In this document: positions 54,346 to 64,000 of the stretch, piece by piece
Numbering within the stretch: position 1 is the first letter of the stretch
Layout of the letters: every line of letters starts with the position of its first letter
Translations under genes and position numbers: made by a program
The notes under the pieces: generated by a model
Told to the model about the DNA's origin: nothing
Databases searched by the model: none
Seen by the model: only the letters and a program-made list of their open reading frames with translations
DNA from: Ensifer adhaerens
GTDB taxonomy: Bacteria > Pseudomonadota > Alphaproteobacteria > Rhizobiales > Rhizobiaceae
Length of the DNA: 64,000 nucleotides
NCBI RefSeq assembly: GCF_020035535.1
Contig: NZ_CP083349.1
Span: 2,994,501-3,058,500 of the forward strand
Reading direction: 5' to 3'

Positions 54346-54705
54346 ATGACGGATCCGCAAAGCGAGCTGAAGCTCAGTGCCTTCAAGTTCCACGAACAGG
54401 CGGTCCGCGCATCCGTCGGCAGCAAACAGCTGACACTCGACGCCCTCGAACTCGGCGGAGAAATCTTGGTCGTTCTGACATGGCTCGGCAATTCCGAGAA
54501 GGGCATGCGCAAACCCGAATATGTCCTGCCCTTGAGCGCGGTGGCCCATCAGGAACTGGGCAACGACCCGGACGCAAAATACAAATGGGCCATCGCCACG
54601 CCGTTGCCCCAATCGCTTTTCGACGGCACCGCATCACGGCCGTTCAGAAGGCAGTTCGGAGTCAAGAGCGGGCCGGCTCTGACATTGCCGCTGGAAATCA
54701 AGTAA
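54346..54705 (+). CDS. Hypothetical protein
   Basis: 119 residues from the ATG at 54346 (MTDPQSELKLSAFKFH); the frame starts 18 codons upstream but with a worse site. It is soluble, with no signal or membrane segment: ELGGEILVVLTWLGNSEKG and KPEYVLPLSAVAHQEL are the best ordered parts. No family recognised. It lies at the edge where typical chromosomal genes give way to accessory genes. Confidence 0.5.
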   Translation: MTDPQSELKLSAFKFHEQAVRASVGSKQLTLDALELGGEILVVLTWLGNSEKGMRKPEYVLPLSAVAHQELGNDPDAKYKWAIATPLPQSLFDGTASRPFRRQFGVKSGPALTLPLEIK

Positions 54706-54964: not shown

Positions 54965-55271
54965 TTAGACCTCCAGTGTTGTCTGGAAGGTCTGATAGCG
55001 CTTGAAAGGTTGCCGTCGCCAATCGACGCCGAGGATCGCTTTTTTGTAGATCGAAAATTCTAAAAGCCGGTGTCAAAAAATCAGAAACGCGTGGCGCGCT
55101 ACAGCGGCAACAATCAGAGGAAGAAATGGTAGCGGAGGACCGTCTCACGCCATCCCCCCGTTTCTCAATCAGGCGATTGGTCGCATGATTGGCGGTCCCG
55201 AGCGCGGCTTGAGTACCGGTACCGATTTCTGATAACTGGTGCCCAGTTGAGGCAACTCTGGGGAGGTACCG
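54965..55271. other. Gene-free stretch at the island edge
   Basis: About 300 bases without a supportable gene or tRNA. It holds the dyad upstream of the 54964 gene and the GGGGAGG ribosome site of the TIR gene. No attachment repeat could be recognised by eye. Confidence 0.4.
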
Positions 55272-56090
55272 TTGACCGGCAAAGTGATTTTTCTATCCCA
55301 TATTCATCAAGAGAGTAAGTTGGCAGTCGAATTCAAGACAGCCATCGAGGATGAATTCAGCGGGTTCGTAGACGTCTTTGTCTCTTCTGACGGCACATCG
55401 ATTCCCGCGGGAGCAAATTTTCTCAATCGAATTGAGCAGGGTCTAGTTGCTTGCGTCGGCGCGATCTATCTTATCAGCCCGAATTCGGTAAATCGAAACT
55501 GGATAAACTTTGAACTTGGGGCAGTATGGATCCGGAATGCTATTGATATTGCCTCGGGGAAACAGCCAATTCCTGCAATACCGATCTGCCACTCTGGTAT
55601 CAAACCTTCCGCTCTACCGATCCCCTTGAACAACCTCAACGCTATCGTTGGAACCGAAGCCTCCCAAATCGAAAGCGCATTTCGCTCACTACAGACAGCA
55701 GTTGGCGCCAAGGGAAGACTGAAAACCGACTTCGACGCGCTGGCCGCTGCGGCAATCTTGTTCGAGCGCAATTACACCCTTGGCGACAACATTGCGAAGA
55801 TGATGGCGTTGGGAGTGGAGAAAAATCAGCGCAATGTTGCTATCGACTTCGCGAGATCCAACGCAAATTCTTCATCCATTACAATGAACTTTGCCGACCT
55901 GGATATGCCGAGCGTCGACGAGATAATCAGAATGGAAAAAGGCGTTCTCAAGGGTATTATTTCTACTAAGATTAATGGATCCGGGATCGGCTTTGGCTCG
56001 GCAGGAACACGTAATATCGCGAACTTAGAAGTATCGGTCGATCCGAAATTGATCATTGAATTTGCTGAGATGATCAGAAACGCAGCATAG
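55272..56090 (+). CDS. TIR-domain protein
   Basis: 272 residues from a TTG at 55272, six bases after GGGGAGG. Residues about 3-140 form a TIR domain: KVIFLSHIHQESKLA (first strand and alpha A), DVFVSSDGTSIPAGANF (BB loop region) and SVNRNWINFELGAVW with E81 at the position of the catalytic glutamate of NAD-cleaving TIRs. Residues about 185-272 are a separate C-terminal part with no recognised domain. Bacterial TIR proteins of this build act in abortive phage defence by depleting NAD or making cyclic ADP-ribose signals. Base composition is visibly more AT-rich than in the hut genes, consistent with transfer. Confidence 0.8.
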   Translation: MTGKVIFLSHIHQESKLAVEFKTAIEDEFSGFVDVFVSSDGTSIPAGANFLNRIEQGLVACVGAIYLISPNSVNRNWINFELGAVWIRNAIDIASGKQPIPAIPICHSGIKPSALPIPLNNLNAIVGTEASQIESAFRSLQTAVGAKGRLKTDFDALAAAAILFERNYTLGDNIAKMMALGVEKNQRNVAIDFARSNANSSSITMNFADLDMPSVDEIIRMEKGVLKGIISTKINGSGIGFGSAGTRNIANLEVSVDPKLIIEFAEMIRNAA

Positions 56091-56159
56091 GTAGCGTGGA
56101 CCGCCATACGCGATCCCCCATATATTTCATTTGGCCGTTTCGACGCCTAGCTGACCAAC

Positions 56160-56822
56160 TTACGGTGCGACTTGGATGGACCACTGATCCATCAGCGTAA
56201 ACATGTTCGGACCCTCAATCCTGCGACGTAACGGCCGCTTGTTACGCCGATGAATCATTATGAGGTCGAGAGGAAAGCCTACCTCGATGGGATAGCTTGC
56301 CATCTTCTTAAGAGTCGTCTGGAACGCCCAAAGGTCAGCAGGAAGTCGATTGCCTTGAATTAGTGCTTGCGCTGTTTCAGTTGCGATCGCTTGCGCTACC
56401 TCGGTATTCGTACCGAGCCCTGTGACAAAGCCGGGCTCATCTTTAACTAGATACTGATCGAGCCCAGGGGCATTTACAAAATATGTCGGTCGCCTAGACT
56501 TGAACCCGGCGGCCAGGCTGAAGACGTTTTGTGGGGTGATACGCTCTGCAAGCGCCTGCGCAATGTAGCGCTCATTCACCTCTATCGAACCCTTGACGAT
56601 AGCGTCATTTAGATCCTTCAGGTCACCAACCCGGGGCAACTTGGGCTCAATTTCATCATTCGCAGTCGAATACCCTCCAGTCGCCCATGCCGCACGATCT
56701 CGCCAGATGCGAATTTTGTCTACTGGCACTGATTTGATCTGCCGAGTCGCGACCGTGTGCGAGCGCGTATCGGCCGCCAAAACAACGGCATCGACACCCG
56801 TTACAGCCAATAGAATTGTCAT
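56160..56822 (-). CDS. Stand-alone proteasome/HslV-like Ntn hydrolase
   Basis: 220 residues from the ATG at 56822. After removal of Met1 the N-terminus is TILLAVTGVDAVVLAADTRS, the pattern of proteasome beta subunits: T2 as nucleophile, D18 at the Asp17 position, K36 (VDKIRI) near the Lys33 position, and ATGGYSTAND at the conserved Gly47/Ala49 strand. The C-terminal half (GLGTNTEVAQAIATETAQALI) also fits the fold. No partner ATPase (HslU, Mpa) is nearby, so it is not HslV. It lies between a TIR gene and a HEPN-like gene. A role in a defence system is inference from that context. Confidence 0.72.
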   Translation of the reverse strand: MTILLAVTGVDAVVLAADTRSHTVATRQIKSVPVDKIRIWRDRAAWATGGYSTANDEIEPKLPRVGDLKDLNDAIVKGSIEVNERYIAQALAERITPQNVFSLAAGFKSRRPTYFVNAPGLDQYLVKDEPGFVTGLGTNTEVAQAIATETAQALIQGNRLPADLWAFQTTLKKMASYPIEVGFPLDLIMIHRRNKRPLRRRIEGPNMFTLMDQWSIQVAP

Positions 56823-56993
56823 CTTGTTCCTAAACTGCGCTGGTAACCGAAAGAAGCGTGCAACGCGACGCCTCAATCAGTCACCTTATATTTCTAGCCG
56901 GCAACCGTGCAAGGCGGAGCATGTCCCACATTGTCGTGCGGATGAGCTGATGGCAATGTACGCCTAACCAAAACAAAGTGGAGCGCGATAGCA

Positions 56994-57749
56994 ATGCTGT
57001 TGGAATGGACGCGTCCAGGTACCTTCATCGGAAGCAGGCTCCGTCAAAAGACCGATATGGAGCACCGTCAGGATCGCGAAGCGCAGCAACACTTCCGTCG
57101 CATAGAAGAAAGCCTCATTGACGCGAATATTTGTATGAACTTTTACAAAGAAGCGGAGAGAAATAGCTGGGGGTCTGAAGCGGAAGCAGACCAACCGGCA
57201 GCCTCAAACGAGTTCGACGCCGAGCATGGTCCGGTCGCGTCTCACACTCAGGCGGGAAGTGAGCGATATGCCGAAGTACTCGCGGCATCAACACGGCGAC
57301 GATGGGACGAAGGTCAGCTTCCTGATAGTCACAAGAATAGATTGGTCCATATTTATGCCCAAGCTTTCATATCCGCTATCGATATGTTCGGTCGACTCTT
57401 GGAGCAGACCATACCTCCAGACGGCAAGGAACAAGCGCTTTCTGAAATCGTGGACGAATTTAGGTCGAATCATCCTCACGTTCGTGGTGTTCGAAATACC
57501 ATCCAGCACATGGATGAACGGTACAAAGGACTGAAGCGCGAAAGAGGTAGACTGTCGCCAATAAATCTTCAGGAGGGAATGCTAATGCTTTCTATGCCGA
57601 CAAGCGAGACCTATGGTGGAACGATGGACAACGGCGCCTATGGTCAAGTGGAGATTTCCTTCTACACTCTTCTATCGATGCGTGACGCATTGATCAAACT
57701 GTACGACCTATACGAATGGGATCTACAGCCGCACCCTATGCCAGACTAA
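56994..57749 (+). CDS. Hypothetical protein with HEPN-like RNxxxH motif
   Basis: 251 residues from the ATG at 56994 (ATG 57057 is an alternative start). The N-terminal third is charged and probably helical (MEHRQDREAQQHFRRIEESL). Residues about 110-185 look all-helical and contain RNTIQH (R167-H172), the Rx4-6H motif of HEPN ribonucleases with the usual Asn after Arg. The C-terminus is a mixed region (SFYTLLSMRDALIKLYDLYEW). The gene diverges from the proteasome-like gene with 171 bases between, and may share regulation with it. The HEPN assignment rests on the motif and helical context only. Confidence 0.55.
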   Translation: MLLEWTRPGTFIGSRLRQKTDMEHRQDREAQQHFRRIEESLIDANICMNFYKEAERNSWGSEAEADQPAASNEFDAEHGPVASHTQAGSERYAEVLAASTRRRWDEGQLPDSHKNRLVHIYAQAFISAIDMFGRLLEQTIPPDGKEQALSEIVDEFRSNHPHVRGVRNTIQHMDERYKGLKRERGRLSPINLQEGMLMLSMPTSETYGGTMDNGAYGQVEISFYTLLSMRDALIKLYDLYEWDLQPHPMPD

Positions 57750-57840
57750 TTGGCAAGCGATGTCATTGGCATAAATCTACACTAAGAATGGCAACCGGAG
57801 GCGGGCCACCTGAAGTGGCCGAAATCAATTACTTACGCGA

Positions 57841-57870
57841 AGGCTGGACACTCACATGTCCAGCCTTTTC
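57841..57870 (+). terminator. Intrinsic terminator between the HEPN-like and ligase genes
   Basis: AGGCTGGACA (57841-57850) pairs with TGTCCAGCCT (57857-57866) around a 6-base loop, followed by TTTC. The arm sequence recurs at 57891-57900 inside the ligase gene end. Confidence 0.8.
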
Positions 57871-57883
57871 ATTATGTTTTTTC

Positions 57884-58879
57884 TCAAGAGTGTCCAGCCT
57901 CCGCGACCCTGATTTCATAGACTTCAGCCGGCCCTTCCATCTCCCGCACGCCCTTGAACGAAGGATGCCGGAGCTTTCCGTCTTGCGTCCACGCGCGATA
58001 CTCGATGTCTGCGACGAGCATGGGCCGACAGAAGAACGGTCCCTTGCGAGCCAGCGTGACCGCCGGCTTGTCGGCAGGGATCGAATTGAGAACTTCGCGA
58101 AGCATCGCCGACTCCTGATAGGTCCAGCCTGTTCCGCACCCACCGACGTAGACGAACCCATCTTCCTTTCTCGCCGCCAGCAGCAGCCTGCCGATCGCTC
58201 CAGGCAAAGATGACGGCTCGTAACCGACGATCAGAAATGCATCTCGACGTACGCATTTGATCTTGAGCCACTCTGGCCGGCGACCTGACCGATAGGGCGC
58301 ATCCCGACGCTTGGCGATGATGCCTTCGAGGCCGAGATCGCAAGCAACGCGGAAGAATTCCGCGCCATCGGCGTCGACCTCCTCAGAAAGGCGGATCGCC
58401 CCGTCGCGGCCGACCAGAAGCTGCTCGAGATGATGCCGGCGTTCGGCGTAAGGCAGCCTGCGCAGGTCGCGGCCGTCGAGATAGAGGAGATCGAAAGCGA
58501 AGAGGAGGATTTCGCCGGGGCCGTGCACACCCGGCCGGCGCCCGAGGGCGCGCTGCAGCAAGCCGAAGTCGGATCGGCCCTTCTCGTCGAGCACGACGGC
58601 CTCGCCGTCAATGATCGCAGTGGTGGCGCCAAGGGTTGGCGCATCTGCTGCAATGGAGGGGAAGCGGTCAGTCCAGTCATGGCCGCCGCGCGTCAGGATG
58701 TGGATCCGACCGGGCTCGATATGGAGCGCTGCGCGATAGCCGTCCCATTTCACCTCGAAAGCCCAAGCGGGGCCCGCGGGCGGCTTGTCGACCAGCGTTG
58801 CGACACAAGGATCTACGCGGATCGGCATCGGATCTGCCGTCAGCGCTGGAGGCGGTTTCTGCTTCACGGTTCTGGCCAT
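57884..58879 (-). CDS. Stand-alone ATP-dependent DNA ligase (LigC/LigD ligase-domain type)
   Basis: 331 residues. Adenylation motif I is EVKWDGYRA (Lys nucleophile), motif III is LFAFDLLYLDG, motif IV LEGIIAKRRDAPYRSG and motif V EWLKIKC; an OB-fold follows (about 215-325). It seals nicks using ATP. It lacks the polymerase and nuclease domains of full LigD, so it is a LigC-like enzyme; such genes often travel with Ku genes or on plasmids and prophages in rhizobia. No Ku gene is in this window. Confidence 0.88.
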   Translation of the reverse strand: MARTVKQKPPPALTADPMPIRVDPCVATLVDKPPAGPAWAFEVKWDGYRAALHIEPGRIHILTRGGHDWTDRFPSIAADAPTLGATTAIIDGEAVVLDEKGRSDFGLLQRALGRRPGVHGPGEILLFAFDLLYLDGRDLRRLPYAERRHHLEQLLVGRDGAIRLSEEVDADGAEFFRVACDLGLEGIIAKRRDAPYRSGRRPEWLKIKCVRRDAFLIVGYEPSSLPGAIGRLLLAARKEDGFVYVGGCGTGWTYQESAMLREVLNSIPADKPAVTLARKGPFFCRPMLVADIEYRAWTQDGKLRHPSFKGVREMEGPAEVYEIRVAEAGHS

Positions 58880-58972
58880 GCGGCCATTAACGCACAGTTC
58901 CGCGAAATCGTCTCATTGACTCTTGCGCCAATGAGAACACATTAGGAACAAAATCCCATCGGAGCGGAGACC

Positions 58973-59359
58973 GTGACAGAAAAGATCGAACTCAAATATC
59001 GCTGGCGACGGCTGCCGGATGACCCGGAAACCCTCTTCCATGGCGACGACGGCGACCGTCGCATGGGCCGCGTCGAGAAAGGCGTCACTGGAAGCCACTA
59101 TCTGTGGTTCATGAACTTCCAGCATGGTGTCAACGATCCCGCCATCGCCGTTACCTTGAACGGCGCCGCCGAGAGCGCGAGAGAAGCCGCAGCAGCCTGC
59201 GAGCGCTGCTATGAGGCCGTATTGAATGCCACATGGCCAGGAATGACGGTGGCACTGCGCGACCGCCTTCTGGGGCACGAGCAGGACATGAAGGATCGCA
59301 AGGCGCAGTGGGAAAGAGAGAAGCGCCGAGAGGAGATCGGCTTGACGGTTATCCGCTAG
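58973..59359 (+). CDS. Hypothetical protein
   Basis: 128 residues from a GTG at 58973 just after CGGAGA. No signal or membrane segment. The sequence has an aromatic-rich core (KYRWRRLPDDPETLFHGDDGDRRMGRV; GSHYLWFMNFQHGV) and a charged C-terminus (HEQDMKDRKAQWEREKRREE). No family recognised; single genes of this kind are frequent next to rhizobial prophages. Confidence 0.5.
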   Translation: MTEKIELKYRWRRLPDDPETLFHGDDGDRRMGRVEKGVTGSHYLWFMNFQHGVNDPAIAVTLNGAAESAREAAAACERCYEAVLNATWPGMTVALRDRLLGHEQDMKDRKAQWEREKRREEIGLTVIR

Positions 59360-59365
59360 AAACGG

Positions 59366-59737
59366 TCAGACCTTTCCGATGATGACGAACACGATCCGCC
59401 GGATGGCCTCGGCGAAACTCACGCCCAGCGCCATAGCGGCAATACCGGTGACGCCGAGCGCGCCGATACCCATCAACTTCCAGCGCTTCACGTCGTCGGT
59501 AACTGGCTTCATCTCCGAGACGTCTTCCCCGATCGTGGCAACTGATGCCTCGACGTGTCCGACACGGTCGACAAGCTGATCCATGCGCTGATGCACGGCG
59601 GCGCGGCTGGTCGCCGCCTTGTCTTCCGCCCGCATCGATCCTTCTTCTAAACGCCGAATAGATTCCTGCAGGCTCCGCATGCCTGCCACCAGCTCGCCGA
59701 GCTGGCGATGTACTGCCGCATCTTCAGATGGCGCCAT
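59366..59737 (-). CDS. DUF1515 family phage-type membrane protein
   Basis: 123 residues. The first 85 residues are a coiled-coil-like helix (VHRQLGELVAGMRSLQESIRRLEEG, QRMDQLVDRVGHVEASVA), followed by one or two membrane segments (LMGIGALGVTGIAAMALGVSF). This matches DUF1515, found in rhizobial prophages near the lysis genes. A holin-like or lysis-accessory role is inferred. Its ATG overlaps the previous stop (TAATG), so it is translated with the spanin-like pair. Confidence 0.7.
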   Translation of the reverse strand: MAPSEDAAVHRQLGELVAGMRSLQESIRRLEEGSMRAEDKAATSRAAVHQRMDQLVDRVGHVEASVATIGEDVSEMKPVTDDVKRWKLMGIGALGVTGIAAMALGVSFAEAIRRIVFVIIGKV

Positions 59738-59976
59738 TAGCCCCGTACCCCGTGCCTCTCACATTCCGCCTTTGTCCAAACCGTCGCGGCGCAAACGCCG
59801 ACGACGGTCCGGTCAATCTTCCGCTGATCTTCCGGCGTCGCCCCTCGCGCACCGATTAGATCAGTGCCGACCACCCGCCGCAGGCCGTCGACACTTGCCG
59901 GCGCGGAAGTCCCACAGCCCTGGAGGGCAAAGGTCAAAGCGAGAGCGGACATCGTCCGCAGTGCGACCAGCTTCAT
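59737..59976 (-). CDS. Small lipoprotein, putative outer-membrane spanin subunit
   Basis: 79 residues from the ATG at 59976. A lipoprotein signal with ALQGC (Cys21) is followed by a short polar domain with two cysteines (VGVCAATV, AECERHG). The gene starts inside the preceding gene in another frame (overlap 59861-59976), which is the classic Rz/Rz1 arrangement. Together they would bridge inner and outer membranes in the last step of phage lysis. Sequence similarity to known Rz1 is not obvious; the claim rests on architecture. Confidence 0.6.
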   Translation of the reverse strand: MKLVALRTMSALALTFALQGCGTSAPASVDGLRRVVGTDLIGARGATPEDQRKIDRTVVGVCAATVWTKAECERHGVRG

Positions 59977-60097
59977 TGTTCTGCCTTTCGATGGAGGTTC
60001 TGACATCGTCGCCGCCTCGCCAGTAGATCCAGAGGAGAAAGCTGGCGACGGTTGCAAGCGCGGCTACAGCCGCAATAGCGCGTGGCGTAGTGAACAT
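59861..60097 (-). CDS. Small membrane protein, putative inner-membrane spanin subunit
   Basis: 78 residues from the ATG at 60097, which overlaps the DUF6527 stop (ATGA). One N-terminal membrane anchor (RAIAAVAALATVASFLLWIYW) is followed by a periplasmic segment (GGDDVRTSIERQNNEAGRT, then two cysteines in FDLCPPGLWDFRAGKC). The anchor, the embedded lipoprotein gene and its place in the lysis cassette suggest an i-spanin, though it is shorter than the usual 120-160 residues. Confidence 0.55.
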   Translation of the reverse strand: MFTTPRAIAAVAALATVASFLLWIYWRGGDDVRTSIERQNNEAGRTADDVRSRFDLCPPGLWDFRAGKCRRPAAGGRH

Positions 60098-60468
60098 CAC
60101 GCATCCTCCCAATCCGGGATCTCGACAGTCTGGCCGGCCAGTTCATGCGTGCAGTCGCCAAGAAACTGGATGCGGCCATCCGTCACGAAAGAGTGGCAGA
60201 CCGAGCACTTGAATGGGGCCAGGCCATCAGGATGTTCGGCGTTGTAGGTACACCAGCAACTCTTGCCTTCCTGACCGGGCACATAGTGTCCGGAGCGGAC
60301 CAAGACAGACGGCGTGAACGTCGGAAGTTCCGGGTCTCCGTTGTAACCCCAGCGTGGCCCAGGCCCTTCGCCGATACAGACCTGATGAGCGCCGTCGCAG
60401 CCAGGACACCAAAACATGAGCCGGCCGCCTTCGACGCTTCGGAGCTTTTTTGAGAGAGCAGCCATCAC
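60097..60468 (-). CDS. DUF6527 family phage protein
   Basis: 123 residues starting MMAALSKKLR. Two CxxC-type clusters, MFWCPGCDGAHQV and FKCSVCHSFVTDGRIQFL, suggest a small zinc-ribbon-like fold, and the end THELAGQTVEIPDW is the usual DUF6527 C-terminus. The function is unknown; the family is common in tailed-phage genomes. The ATG overlaps the endolysin stop by four bases. Confidence 0.75.
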   Translation of the reverse strand: MMAALSKKLRSVEGGRLMFWCPGCDGAHQVCIGEGPGPRWGYNGDPELPTFTPSVLVRSGHYVPGQEGKSCWCTYNAEHPDGLAPFKCSVCHSFVTDGRIQFLGDCTHELAGQTVEIPDWEDA

Positions 60469-61439
60469 GCCATCCTCTCAACCTGTTTCGCGACCGCCTT
60501 CCGGTCGGCGTTCTTCCGCCAATAAAGGAAGCCGGCGATGCCGCCGAGAGCGAGGAGAAGGATCAGCAGGTTCTGCCAGGGAATCCCACCGATCGCGGTG
60601 AGGATCGACGCGCCGCCGCCGCTGACGGCCGGGACGATGACCTCTTTCGACTTCCACCACGGCGCATCGAGGCTCGGCGGCGTCACCGGGACGGGAACCG
60701 GTACCGGCTTCTCCTCGGTCACCGGCGCTACCTTAACCTCCGGCCTGGCAGCCTCGCCCGGTGTGAGCGCTACAAGCGCCTTGTGCATGGCGGATCGCGT
60801 CTTCGGGCCAACGTCGCCGTCAACATCGAGGCGCTGATCAGCCTGGAACTGCCGAACATTGTCGGCGCGATAACCGAGAAGGACGAGCGAGATCCGCGCG
60901 AGTCGGTCGAAGCGGTCGGCCAGACCATTCTTCCCACCGTTGATCTTCTTCGTGATCGTCTCGGCGTCGCCCTCATCGGCCCAACGGTTCAGTCCACGGG
61001 TGTCCCAGTAAAACAAGGGGACGAGCCCTTCCCAAGGGTCGGTGTTGACCGCTTCCGGATCCTTAACGAAGTCCGGGCAGGCCAAACCGGCAGCGCAGCA
61101 CCAATCTCGGAACTGGCGATAGTTGTCCTTGCCGGTCAACTGCATGCCGGTACGGCCGCGATAGAGATAGCCGTCGCCATCCTTTTCCGGCGTGTTGCCG
61201 AGATCAGGGCGAGTGTCGTAACGCTGCTGCGCCGGCGTCGGCCCCCAGATTTCGCGATCGTACCTGAAGTCGCCGCTTTCGTGCATCAACTGCGCGAAGT
61301 ACTGGGCGAGCCGGTGCGGTCGATCCATCCCGAACTTGCTGCCGTATTTGTCCAGAGCCACAAGCACGGACGCAAGGTTGCTCTCGTTCACTTTGCCCTT
61401 CGAGGCATCGCGAACCTGCTGAGCGGTGATGACATTCAT
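60465..61439 (-). CDS. GH19-type phage endolysin with peptidoglycan-binding domain and membrane tail
   Basis: 324 residues. Residues about 1-180 are a GH19 chitinase-like lysozyme domain: E54 in LMHESGDF is the probable acid, with YRGRTGMQLTGKDNYRQF and VPLFYWDTRGLNRWAD. Residues about 185-222 resemble a PG_binding_1 domain (RQFQADQRLDVDGDVGPKT). A Pro/Val linker (PVPVPVPVTPP) leads to a membrane segment or two (about 265-305, LLILLLALGGIAGFLYW). It cleaves peptidoglycan in host lysis. The membrane tail is unusual for an endolysin and could tether it or act as a holin. Confidence 0.85.
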   Translation of the reverse strand: MNVITAQQVRDASKGKVNESNLASVLVALDKYGSKFGMDRPHRLAQYFAQLMHESGDFRYDREIWGPTPAQQRYDTRPDLGNTPEKDGDGYLYRGRTGMQLTGKDNYRQFRDWCCAAGLACPDFVKDPEAVNTDPWEGLVPLFYWDTRGLNRWADEGDAETITKKINGGKNGLADRFDRLARISLVLLGYRADNVRQFQADQRLDVDGDVGPKTRSAMHKALVALTPGEAARPEVKVAPVTEEKPVPVPVPVTPPSLDAPWWKSKEVIVPAVSGGGASILTAIGGIPWQNLLILLLALGGIAGFLYWRKNADRKAVAKQVERMA

Positions 61440-61602
61440 CGGTTACTCCTGATTGTTGTTGGGGGGGGGTGGCAGGCAACGAGATTAGGCGACGGGAAGA
61501 GTTTTCCCCGGCCACGTGGCTCACCTTTGTTGTTTGAGATAGGCTCGTTGCCTACGGATTGAGGTCCGTGCTACGGGACAACCAGCCAAGGGAGGGAAAG
61601 AG
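61440..61602. other. Divergent promoter gap with a G9 run
   Basis: 163 bases between the endolysin and the plus-strand cargo genes. It holds a run of nine G at 61461-61469, close to the endolysin start, and the GGAGGG ribosome site of the next gene. Confidence 0.5.
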
Positions 61603-61854
61603 ATGTACGTAAAAGCACTCACACCTGAGGAAGAGGGCATGGAGCTAATCAACGAGACGCCGGAAGCTTTGCGCTACCGCGGCGCTGACGGACGAACTGC
61701 TACCGTGTTCAAGAGCCACGACATGGGGCCGTCTGAATACGACTATGATCCGAATAAGGCCGAAACCGCTCGCACTGCCTCTCCAAGCGATCAGCCGATC
61801 GTTTACGAAAATCACGACATGGGCCCATCGGCCGGAGACTATGATGCAAACTGA
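61603..61854 (+). CDS. Small protein with two HDMGPSxxDYD repeats
   Basis: 83 residues from the ATG at 61603 behind GGAGGG. The motif KSHDMGPSEYDYDPN (about 37-51) recurs as ENHDMGPSAGDYDAN at the very C-terminus. The N-terminal half (EGMELINETPEALRYRGADGR) may be a small beta domain. No family recognised. Its stop overlaps the start of the methyltransferase gene (61844), so the two are co-translated. The repeat tail may be a docking or metal-binding peptide (inference). Confidence 0.6.
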   Translation: MYVKALTPEEEGMELINETPEALRYRGADGRTATVFKSHDMGPSEYDYDPNKAETARTASPSDQPIVYENHDMGPSAGDYDAN

Positions 61855-62659
61855 ATTTTCTAAGCTTACGGATGACCAGTGGTTTGACAAAGTCATCGGC
61901 AAGGATGGCCCTGCCCTGTTCGGCCTTCCTGAAGATCGCATTCAGATCAGCACCACCGGGCGAGCCGGAGAACCAGTTCTCCGTGATGGTTTTCGGTTCT
62001 ATCAGTTCGCCCGCAGGATGCTGCAGGAACATGGCAACGGTCTGAGTGAGGACACTGCCGTTATGGACTTTGGCTGCGCCTGGGGCCGTATCCTTCGGTT
62101 CTGGCCCCGCGATATCCAGGCGAAGAACCTCTTCGGCTTTGAAGTTCAAGAGCGCTTGCTGGACTACGCCCGCCAGCAAGTGCCGGCTGCAACGTACCGT
62201 GTCAGCCAGACGCGGCCGCCGCTTCCGAACAACGGCCAGAAATTTGACCTGATCTATGCGTTCTCGGTCTTTTCCCATCTGCCGGAAGCGCTGACCAACG
62301 AGTGGATCGAAGAGTTTTCCAAGGTGTTGAAGCCGGGCGGCATCGCATGCCTCACCACCCGACCGCGTGCTCACATCGAGATAGCCGGGACGGCTGCAAG
62401 CAAGGGCGCCCATTCGAGTTTCTATGCTGGCCTGATCACTGACAAAGACGAAGCTCTCGCCAGCTACGACAAGGGAAACTTCATCTTCTATCCGGCAGAT
62501 GGTGGCGGCTCCCTCAGTGCTGCCGATTATGGCGAAGCCATCATCCCGCTAGCCTATGCCGAAGCCAACTGGTCTCAGCACCTTGAGGTATTGGGGTTCT
62601 TTGAGAGGTATTCGGAAACCTACCTCCAACCGTGCTTCGTGCTCAGAAAGCCGCGTTGA
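61844..62659 (+). CDS. SAM-dependent methyltransferase, prophage cargo
   Basis: 271 residues from the ATG at 61844 (61841 also possible), GGAG six bases upstream. Motif I is AVMDFGCAWGRILRF, motif post-I FGFEVQERLLDYAR, and VLKPGGIACLTTRPR is the usual late strand. The front segment (GRAGEPVLRDGFRFYQFARRML) recalls methyltransferases of surface-polysaccharide clusters. With the acyltransferase 10 bases downstream it may modify a cell-surface glycan of the host, or a phage structure (inference). Confidence 0.8.
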   Translation: MQTEFSKLTDDQWFDKVIGKDGPALFGLPEDRIQISTTGRAGEPVLRDGFRFYQFARRMLQEHGNGLSEDTAVMDFGCAWGRILRFWPRDIQAKNLFGFEVQERLLDYARQQVPAATYRVSQTRPPLPNNGQKFDLIYAFSVFSHLPEALTNEWIEEFSKVLKPGGIACLTTRPRAHIEIAGTAASKGAHSSFYAGLITDKDEALASYDKGNFIFYPADGGGSLSAADYGEAIIPLAYAEANWSQHLEVLGFFERYSETYLQPCFVLRKPR

Positions 62660-62669
62660 GTTTGTGTAA

Positions 62670-63299
62670 ATGACCCCGAAAGCAGTATTCCCCGCCCACG
62701 CGGCAACCAAACTCCAGCTCGCCAAGGTTATCCCGCCCTACATGAAATTCGTGTGCGGCGATTACACATATGGAGCCCCGCGGCTCCTGACCACGAAGGA
62801 CGACGCGCCCCGCATTCTGTCCATAGGCAACTACTGCAGCATTGCTGAGGAAGTGACGATGTTCGTCGGCCGATTTGGCATCCACAAGATGGAAACCCTG
62901 ACAACGTTCCCGTTGGGAATGTCCCTGCCAGGCCATGATCTGAAGGCGCTCGGCGGACTGAACACCCAGAAGCTTCCCGACAACCTGGACCTGATCATCG
63001 GCAACGATGTCTGGATAGGCTATCGAGCGATCATAAAGGCAGGTGTTACGATCGGAACCGGCGCTGTGATTGGCGCCGGCGCCATCGTGACGAAGGACGT
63101 TGCCCCTTACTCGGTCGTTGCCGGCTCGCCAGCCCGCCACATCAAATATCGGCATGAGGAGCATATCCGAGCAGGTTTACTGGAGAGCGGATGGTGGGAA
63201 TACACGCCTGACGAATTGGCCGGTATTTTGGGCGATGTAACCCTGAGCACCGACATGGAAAAGATAGTCAAGCGTTTGCGCGATCACAAAAACCCATAG
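62670..63299 (+). CDS. Hexapeptide-repeat acyltransferase (CatB/xenobiotic acetyltransferase type)
   Basis: 209 residues. A left-handed beta-helix is shown by [35 protein letters not shown] and [26 protein letters not shown], and the end [11 protein letters not shown] is the XAT signature. It transfers an acetyl or similar group, in glycan-modifying relatives to a sugar. It is probably co-transcribed with the methyltransferase and runs against the phage late genes, as phage cargo (moron) genes often do. Confidence 0.85.
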
Positions 63300-63305
63300 G
63301 TAGGT

Positions 63306-63596
63306 CTATGCGCTTGGCGAAAACTCGCGGGTGAAGGCGTCGGGCTTGATCATTACCGGCTCCGCATTATCGCCAACAACGATCCAATCGTTGGGGCAGA
63401 CGGTGGCAACGCCTTCCTTAGTGGAAATGTTGCCGTGATAGTGCATCGGCTTTCCGCACTGCGCGCAAGGCCACTCGCCGACAATCGCTGGGTTTCTGAA
63501 CGGCAAAACTTCAACGCCACCTGGCGTTTCGTCGCCGACTTTAAACCAAGGCAGCGCATCAAAGACGCTGCTAGCTTTGTTTTGAAATTTCGCCAT
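63306..63596 (-). CDS. Small hypothetical phage protein with CxxC motif
   Basis: 96 residues from the ATG at 63596 (MAKFQNKASSVFDAL). A zinc-ribbon-like pattern is suggested by WPCAQCGKPMHYHG followed by ATVCPNDW. It follows the tail-type gene by 13 bases on the same strand, so it belongs to the late operon. No function known. Confidence 0.6.
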   Translation of the reverse strand: MAKFQNKASSVFDALPWFKVGDETPGGVEVLPFRNPAIVGEWPCAQCGKPMHYHGNISTKEGVATVCPNDWIVVGDNAEPVMIKPDAFTREFSPSA

Positions 63597-63609
63597 TGTC
63601 TTCCGTCCT

Positions 63610-64000
63610 TTAGAGGTTCTTAACGGCAACTTCGGCCGTAACTTGTAACGTGAGAGCGGCAGCTCCGGCGACCACGACGCGGAGTTCGCCGGAGATCTGC
63701 GAAGAAGACGTTGCAGTGACCATCAGACTATCCCACTGCAAGTTTGCGTCGAAAGCAATTCTGACGGCCTGAAACTGCACGTCCTTGACATCCGGCGTGA
63801 ACGGCAGGCCGTGATTGAACGTAAACGTCTTCCGCCCTGTCGAAGCCACGTCAACCGCAGTCCCCAACGCGATCTTATTGTATGTTACTAAACCGAGAAC
63901 ATCGCGAACGCCGGTTCCAGTGCCGCTATCGACAAGGGCAGTTGTGACGGATAGCGCTTCCCCGCCAAGGATCTTGGCGGCAGTTACCCCGCCATCAACT
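63610..64000 (-). CDS. Phage tail-type structural protein, 5' part cut by window edge
   Basis: The minus-strand frame stays open from the right edge of the window to the TAA at 63610, about 129 residues. It reads DGGVTAAKILGGEALSVTT early and later GRKTFTFNHGLPFTPDVKDV and GELRVVVAGAAALTLQV, a beta-rich Ser/Thr/Ala-rich pattern like tail fibre or tail accessory proteins. A TTG at 63867 is inside the frame and is not taken as the start. The name rests on position and composition only. Confidence 0.55.
   Translation of the reverse strand, partial: VDGGVTAAKILGGEALSVTTALVDSGTGTGVRDVLGLVTYNKIALGTAVDVASTGRKTFTFNHGLPFTPDVKDVQFQAVRIAFDANLQWDSLMVTATSSSQISGELRVVVAGAAALTLQVTAEVAVKNL

Follow-up and report, generated by a model that had tools for sequence, protein, structure and literature searches.

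The proteasome-like gene

We analysed a 64,000-nucleotide stretch of the genome of Ensifer adhaerens (contig NZ_CP083349.1, positions 2,994,501 to 3,058,500; hereafter the window), and within it a gene that had been predicted from the DNA letters to encode a stand-alone proteasome-like N-terminal nucleophile (Ntn) hydrolase. The gene is real and lies on the minus strand, at the end of a myovirus-like prophage, between a TIR-domain gene and an orphan open reading frame (ORF) (Table 1). Its product begins MTILLAVTG, with Thr as residue 2. An in-frame stop stands immediately 5' of the ATG in the relative L003 and one codon before it in the relative L002, so that a propeptide is impossible in these two, and a TTG 18 codons upstream is an alternative start in principle in the window. 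Compared with L003, the codons of the gene look to be under purifying selection (proportion of non-synonymous differences, pN, 0.18, corrected dN 0.21; proportion of synonymous differences, pS, 0.76 and saturated).

Catalytic residues and predicted fold

The proteasome-type layout described in the original prediction is correct: Thr2 is followed by Asp18 (+17, counting Thr as 1), Lys36 (+35) and a GGYS stretch at residues 49–52. Asp18, Lys36 and Gly49-Gly50 are conserved in all six rows of the core-family alignment (A2), and Asp18 and Lys36 in all 11 rows of a wider alignment (A4; its L005 row was entered from its Thr on, after a GTG start). Thr2 is present in five of the six and 10 of the 11 rows, respectively, the sole exception in both being P0006, which comes from a 900-base contig and has no N-terminus. 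The expected conservation of the three residues was therefore borne out.

The AlphaFold2 (AF2) model, its structural matches and a profile match in the PDB all support the proteasome-type Ntn fold that had been proposed. The family profile matches PDB proteasome chains, with Thr2 aligned to the mature Thr1 of yeast beta1, and the best structural matches of the model include the Anbu structures 5lox and 5nyw. A single-sequence phmmer search of the PDB returned only unrelated cellulases (E 0.17) and was replaced by the profile searches. Four helices flank the sheets in the model (residues 54–61, 68–92, 140–154 and 162–176); there is no long insertion and, past residue 202, only short elements without a long helix. 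The predicted alpha-beta-beta-alpha, proteasome beta-like fold is that by which the superfamily is defined in PMC8665760, and removal of Met1 would place Thr at the mature N-terminus, with equivalents of Asp17 and Lys33, as in the superfamily.

Relatives and their distribution

The family is rare. A search of 5.8 billion database proteins, clustered at 90% and reached through shared words, retrieved four proteins with the single sequence and six with an alignment, the window protein counted in. Identities to the window protein are 74% for P0002 (Sinorhizobium meliloti), 45% for P0004 (Shinella), 43% for P0005 and 36% for P0006. P0003 (S. medicae), of only 177 amino acids, diverges after about residue 164 into an unrelated tail and ends early, and the gene may be decaying in this species. 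A search with a wider alignment gave nine proteins at E 0.001 among the 8000 candidates scored (P0005 and P0006 being absent from this capped list) and added P0007–P0011; precomputed PF00227 annotations exist for P0007, P0009 and P0010. None of the six core-family members reaches the PF00227 cut-off, and the window protein has no match in Pfam, NCBIfam, PHROGs or PADLOC; in PHROGs only P0006 (phrog_5267, E 0.0023) and P0002 (phrog_34751, E 0.36) had matches, both to unnamed groups.

Of 151 genomes one gave a match, the genome studied here. At E 0.01 the profile matched eight of 346 family-level genomes: this one, G301, G316, G179 and four carrying L008–L011. The last four were rejected as relatives, as they represent another stand-alone proteasome-like family with an MTVVLAT start; one was scanned and is PF00227-positive, and three were aligned and are 87–88% identical to the first, L010 being judged by eye. 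An order-wide search with A4, scoring up to seven candidates per genome, matched at least eight of 397 genomes, this one included. With tblastn we found no match in phage records for the window protein and three relatives, nor in plasmids for the window protein and one relative. Viral contigs yielded one locus with alignment A1 and one with P0010 (the same contig again with A7), and no match with P0008. A tree of 15 sequences was not used, only three of its 12 inner branches being well supported and long branches meeting.

A prophage as carrier

The element is a prophage by both its borders and its genes. Among the 43 prophage ORFs scanned there are terminase, portal, capsid, sheath, baseplate, tape measure, endolysin, integrase, head maturation protease and serine recombinase genes. 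The two flanks are 184 bp apart in genome G001 and 231 bp apart in G008, as at an empty site, and about 1.1 kb apart in G010, 2.4–2.7 kb in G002, G005 and G009, 17 kb in G012 and 52 kb in G007; in the remaining relatives the left-flank query matches in small part only and gives no distance. For 11 of 15 relatives, homology on the right starts at L014:16370-16371; for the other four it starts 8–76 bases deeper in the prophage. On the left, homology ends at 54693, 432 bp from the attL core. Insertion at the 3' end of a tRNA gene is more usual for tyrosine integrases; this prophage has a serine recombinase, and the ORF of the latter extends through the attR core.

Table 1. Features of the window and of the prophage (window coordinates unless stated otherwise; L014 covers the right prophage end).
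Feature	Position	Strand	Remarks
Proteasome-like Ntn hydrolase gene	56160..56822	minus	220 aa; ATG at 56822, stop at 56160; open reading frame, alignments and AF2 model
Myovirus-like prophage, ~44.8 kb	genome 3049626-3094383; window part 55126..64000		borders and phage genes
attL core, 14 bp	55126..55139		identical to 3' end of tRNA-Met at right prophage end
attR core	L014:16370-16383 = genome 3094370-3094383		3' end of tRNA-Met, L014:16371-16447
TIR-domain protein, 272 aa	55272..56090	plus	inside attL, convergent with Ntn gene; Pfam TIR_2, E 1.3e-7
Orphan ORF, 251 aa	56994..57749	plus	divergent from Ntn gene; no Pfam family over cut-off
LigD-type ATP-dependent DNA ligase	57884..58879	minus	NCBIfam TIGR02779, E 1.4e-91; last shared phage gene before variable cargo slot
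Endolysin/chitinase-like lysis gene	60465..61439	minus	89% DNA identity to phiLM21 chitinase-like gene; PG_binding_1
Serine recombinase	L014:14801-16414		opposite prophage end from Ntn gene

The end that carries the lysis and ligase genes is related to the phages phi3LM21, phiLM21 and phi2LM21. A homologous ligase lies towards the same end in these three phages and in L003, a viral contig carrying the P0002 protein with its Ntn gene after the ligase. Past the ligase there is nothing in phiLM21 and there are other genes in related phages (two hypotheticals; a methyltransferase and others). The cargo stretch of the window has a GC content of 49–54%, against 60–66% in the phage part at 58–61.5 kb and 63–70% in the chromosome at 50–52.2 kb, a contrast that is weaker against 52.5–55 kb (53–61%) and 61.5–64 kb (54–58%). 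In L003, a 112-bp segment near the ligase 3' end (L003:9204-9315) recurs between ligase and Ntn gene (L003:9784-9895) with 91% identity, the two copies bracketing an ORF of 92 amino acids; this points to an exchange of cargo next to the ligase, of which the repeat is a possible scar. The accessory island in which the gene had been placed is thus the end of a prophage.

The contexts of five of the six relatives also look phage-borne or mobile, those of L016 and L017 less surely. Besides L003, the Ntn gene lies upstream of terminase and connector genes in L015 (genome G301) and between major capsid and tail genes in a viral contig (L029:3847-4539, source name S. medicae); it adjoins an integrase in L017 (P0007, Aquibium) and has integrase-like and resolvase-like ORFs, by our own reading, on one side in L016 (P0008), where the scan of the neighbours gave one resolvase, with ordinary transport genes farther off. 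The L029 protein, P0010, belongs to a second, different proteasome-like family that is PF00227-positive. L002 (Shinella), close to a match of an S24-type repressor, is only a candidate mobile context. Carriage by a mobile element, as originally supposed, is supported by this prophage and by the phage or recombinase genes that adjoin five of the six.

As had been remarked from the window, no unfoldase match accompanies the Ntn gene: in the genome search, the prophage holds none of the 13 AAA_2 matches and none of the 32 AAA matches (the latter among 150 scored of 361 candidates). The whole-genome search with PF00227 gave one match, at 3848314, a gene that on our own reading of its sequence is HslV and is separate from the prophage gene; an AAA_2 match 0.7 kb downstream of it is presumably HslU.

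Comparison with described proteasome homologues

Phage-borne proteasome homologues were described as a class in 2021, with 22 new families, PPH and AAH in phages among them, for which there was no function-suggesting genomic context and no co-occurring AAA+ partner (PMC8665760). The branch had been called uncharacterised; as a class it has been described since 2021, and the subgroup itself was not matched to any cluster named in that paper, where clusters required at least 10 members, the present core family comprising six cluster representatives. Among the papers listed by our literature searches on phage proteasome homologues we judged only PMC8665760 to be on point, and these searches gave no published report of this protein; the word proteasome does not occur in the main text, supplements aside, of three papers on Sinorhizobium prophages (PMC12429752, PMC11476347 and PMC5537653).

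The protein resembles the PPH family in its proteasome-like fold, its Thr1/Asp17/Lys33-type centre, its location within a prophage (PPH being found in tailed phages and phage-derived regions) and the lack of a known unfoldase. However, PPH proteins have about 140 residues and no helix H2 (PMC8665760), whereas here there are 220 residues and, in the model, four flanking helices. Anbu structures are among its best structural matches, as noted above, but the long C-terminal helix H5 of Anbu (PMC8665760) is not predicted here. Like HslV it is a short beta-like subunit of a single type with an N-terminal Thr, but the gene has no HslU-like neighbour in the prophage. We therefore assign it neither to PPH (length and helix H2), nor to Anbu (no H5), nor to HslV (no HslU neighbour). 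BPH is likewise stand-alone, with no known partner unfoldase (PMC5777263), and its heptameric double ring has been solved (PMC5777263, PMC8665760), whereas the present protein is known from its sequence and a subunit model, as prophage cargo. The host class of AAH fits. We would class the protein, on comparison with PPH, Anbu and HslV, as a new, rare and Pfam-invisible member of the known proteasome-like superfamily.

Possible function

On the model and alignments, we think it fairly probable that the product is a compact proteasome-beta-like subunit of an N-terminal-threonine hydrolase, made without a propeptide, and that its gene is cargo for lysogenic conversion, sited at the attL end of a prophage of Sinorhizobium type. 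Methionine aminopeptidase would remove Met1 and expose Thr2, which by analogy with the family would serve as nucleophile, with Lys36 and Asp18 as partners and Gly49/Gly50 as oxyanion hole, all of them conserved residues. The modelled subunit, with its four flanking helices, shows neither a long insertion nor a long C-terminal helix, so that assembly into a ring like that of HslV or BPH appears possible. Because no AAA+ unfoldase was found in the prophage, the enzyme would most likely cleave unfolded or flexible proteins of the host or the phage by itself, or else work together with host housekeeping chaperones. Its most likely benefit, in lysogeny or late in infection, would be to modify the host or to serve in phage competition; this is the weakest step of the scheme. 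We consider it rather doubtful that it forms a stand-alone, propeptide-free threonine protease chamber that does without a dedicated AAA+ unfoldase, used as a weapon of lysogenic conversion or phage competition and representing an independent, very rare, phage-evolved branch missed by profile libraries.

Several observations weigh against the favoured hydrolase. The AF2 loop at residues 26–28 has a predicted local distance difference test (pLDDT) score below 50 and the block 21–30 a mean of 53, and some structural matches (8cvt_N, 8adn_J) do not start by pairing residue 2 with residue 1. In the core-family alignment, read by eye, LGTNT falls roughly at the 20S GSG position, and the 20S Asp166/Ser169 pair has no obvious counterpart, so that catalysis may differ from that of a protease. 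The profile gave no significant alignment with the host HslV sequence alone (hhalign), there is no sigma-70-like promoter match just 5' of the gene on its strand, and we must add the lack of Pfam, NCBIfam and PHROGs matches and the limited scoring of AAA candidates. Finally, the neighbours of the gene are not conserved among relatives, and genomic context therefore does not name a function.

The same departures, around the 20S Ser129/Asp166/Ser169 network, together with phage cargo lacking an unfoldase match, suit the main alternative, an improbable one in our view: a non-degradative enzyme of proteasome fold, connectase-like and monomeric or a small oligomer, acting as transpeptidase, ligase or processing enzyme on one specific target protein. 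The archaeal connectase is indeed a Thr1 protein of proteasome fold that acts as a ligase, but it lacks H1–H2 and has a two-helix insertion (PMC8665760), whereas four flanking helices, and no insertion of that kind, are predicted here.

It is quite unlikely that the protein is a protease of virion morphogenesis or late infection, processing scaffold, tail or host-takeover proteins. The gene does lie downstream of the lysis genes and the ligase in the same direction, and in other phage contexts relatives lie upstream of terminase and connector genes (L015) or amid capsid and tail genes (L029); however, its position is not fixed, the phi3LM21, phiLM21 and phi2LM21 records retain the ligase and then end or continue with other genes, and the phage records searched hold no relative. 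Other genes of the prophage supply head maturation protease families, so that a role in capsid maturation was thought unlikely; the phage head can probably mature without this enzyme.

Less likely still is an abortive-infection module of TIR/HEPN type in the cargo slot, with the enzyme as effector or activating protease: in cargo of 49–54% GC, a TIR gene and an ORF with a HEPN-like motif flank the gene, but these are convergent and divergent, respectively, and hence form no operon with it, PADLOC is blank for the Ntn protein, and the recurrence of TIR and HEPN neighbours tested negative. TIR (PF13676) is near the Ntn gene in none of the records of the six relatives, two of them core-family (L002, L003) and two viral contigs that may be fragments; the sole TIR among them, that of G179, lies some 1.5 Mb from the gene. 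Of the original interpretation, the Ntn fold, the Thr/Asp/Lys centre, the mobile carrier and the absence of an unfoldase match stand, whereas TIR/HEPN recurrence does not.

The gene also shows that a part of the proteasome-like superfamily in prophages is missed by Pfam and NCBIfam. Proteasome homologues without an unfoldase are an open question, and a single-gene, propeptide-free version borne by a rhizobium prophage would offer a small system for deletion, induction and phage challenge.

Neighbouring genes

No relative of the orphan ORF was found when 246 other family-level genomes, phage records and viral contigs were searched, and its structure model from one sequence is uninformative (pLDDT 40). 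Its RNTIQH stretch resembles a HEPN Rx4-6H motif, with no database match. The TIR protein matches PADLOC ThsB models weakly (Thoeris; best E 5.5e-5) and phrog_29177 (E 3.5e-21), and shares 35.7% identity, across 51% of its length, with proteins of Streptococcus phages, e.g. Javan47.
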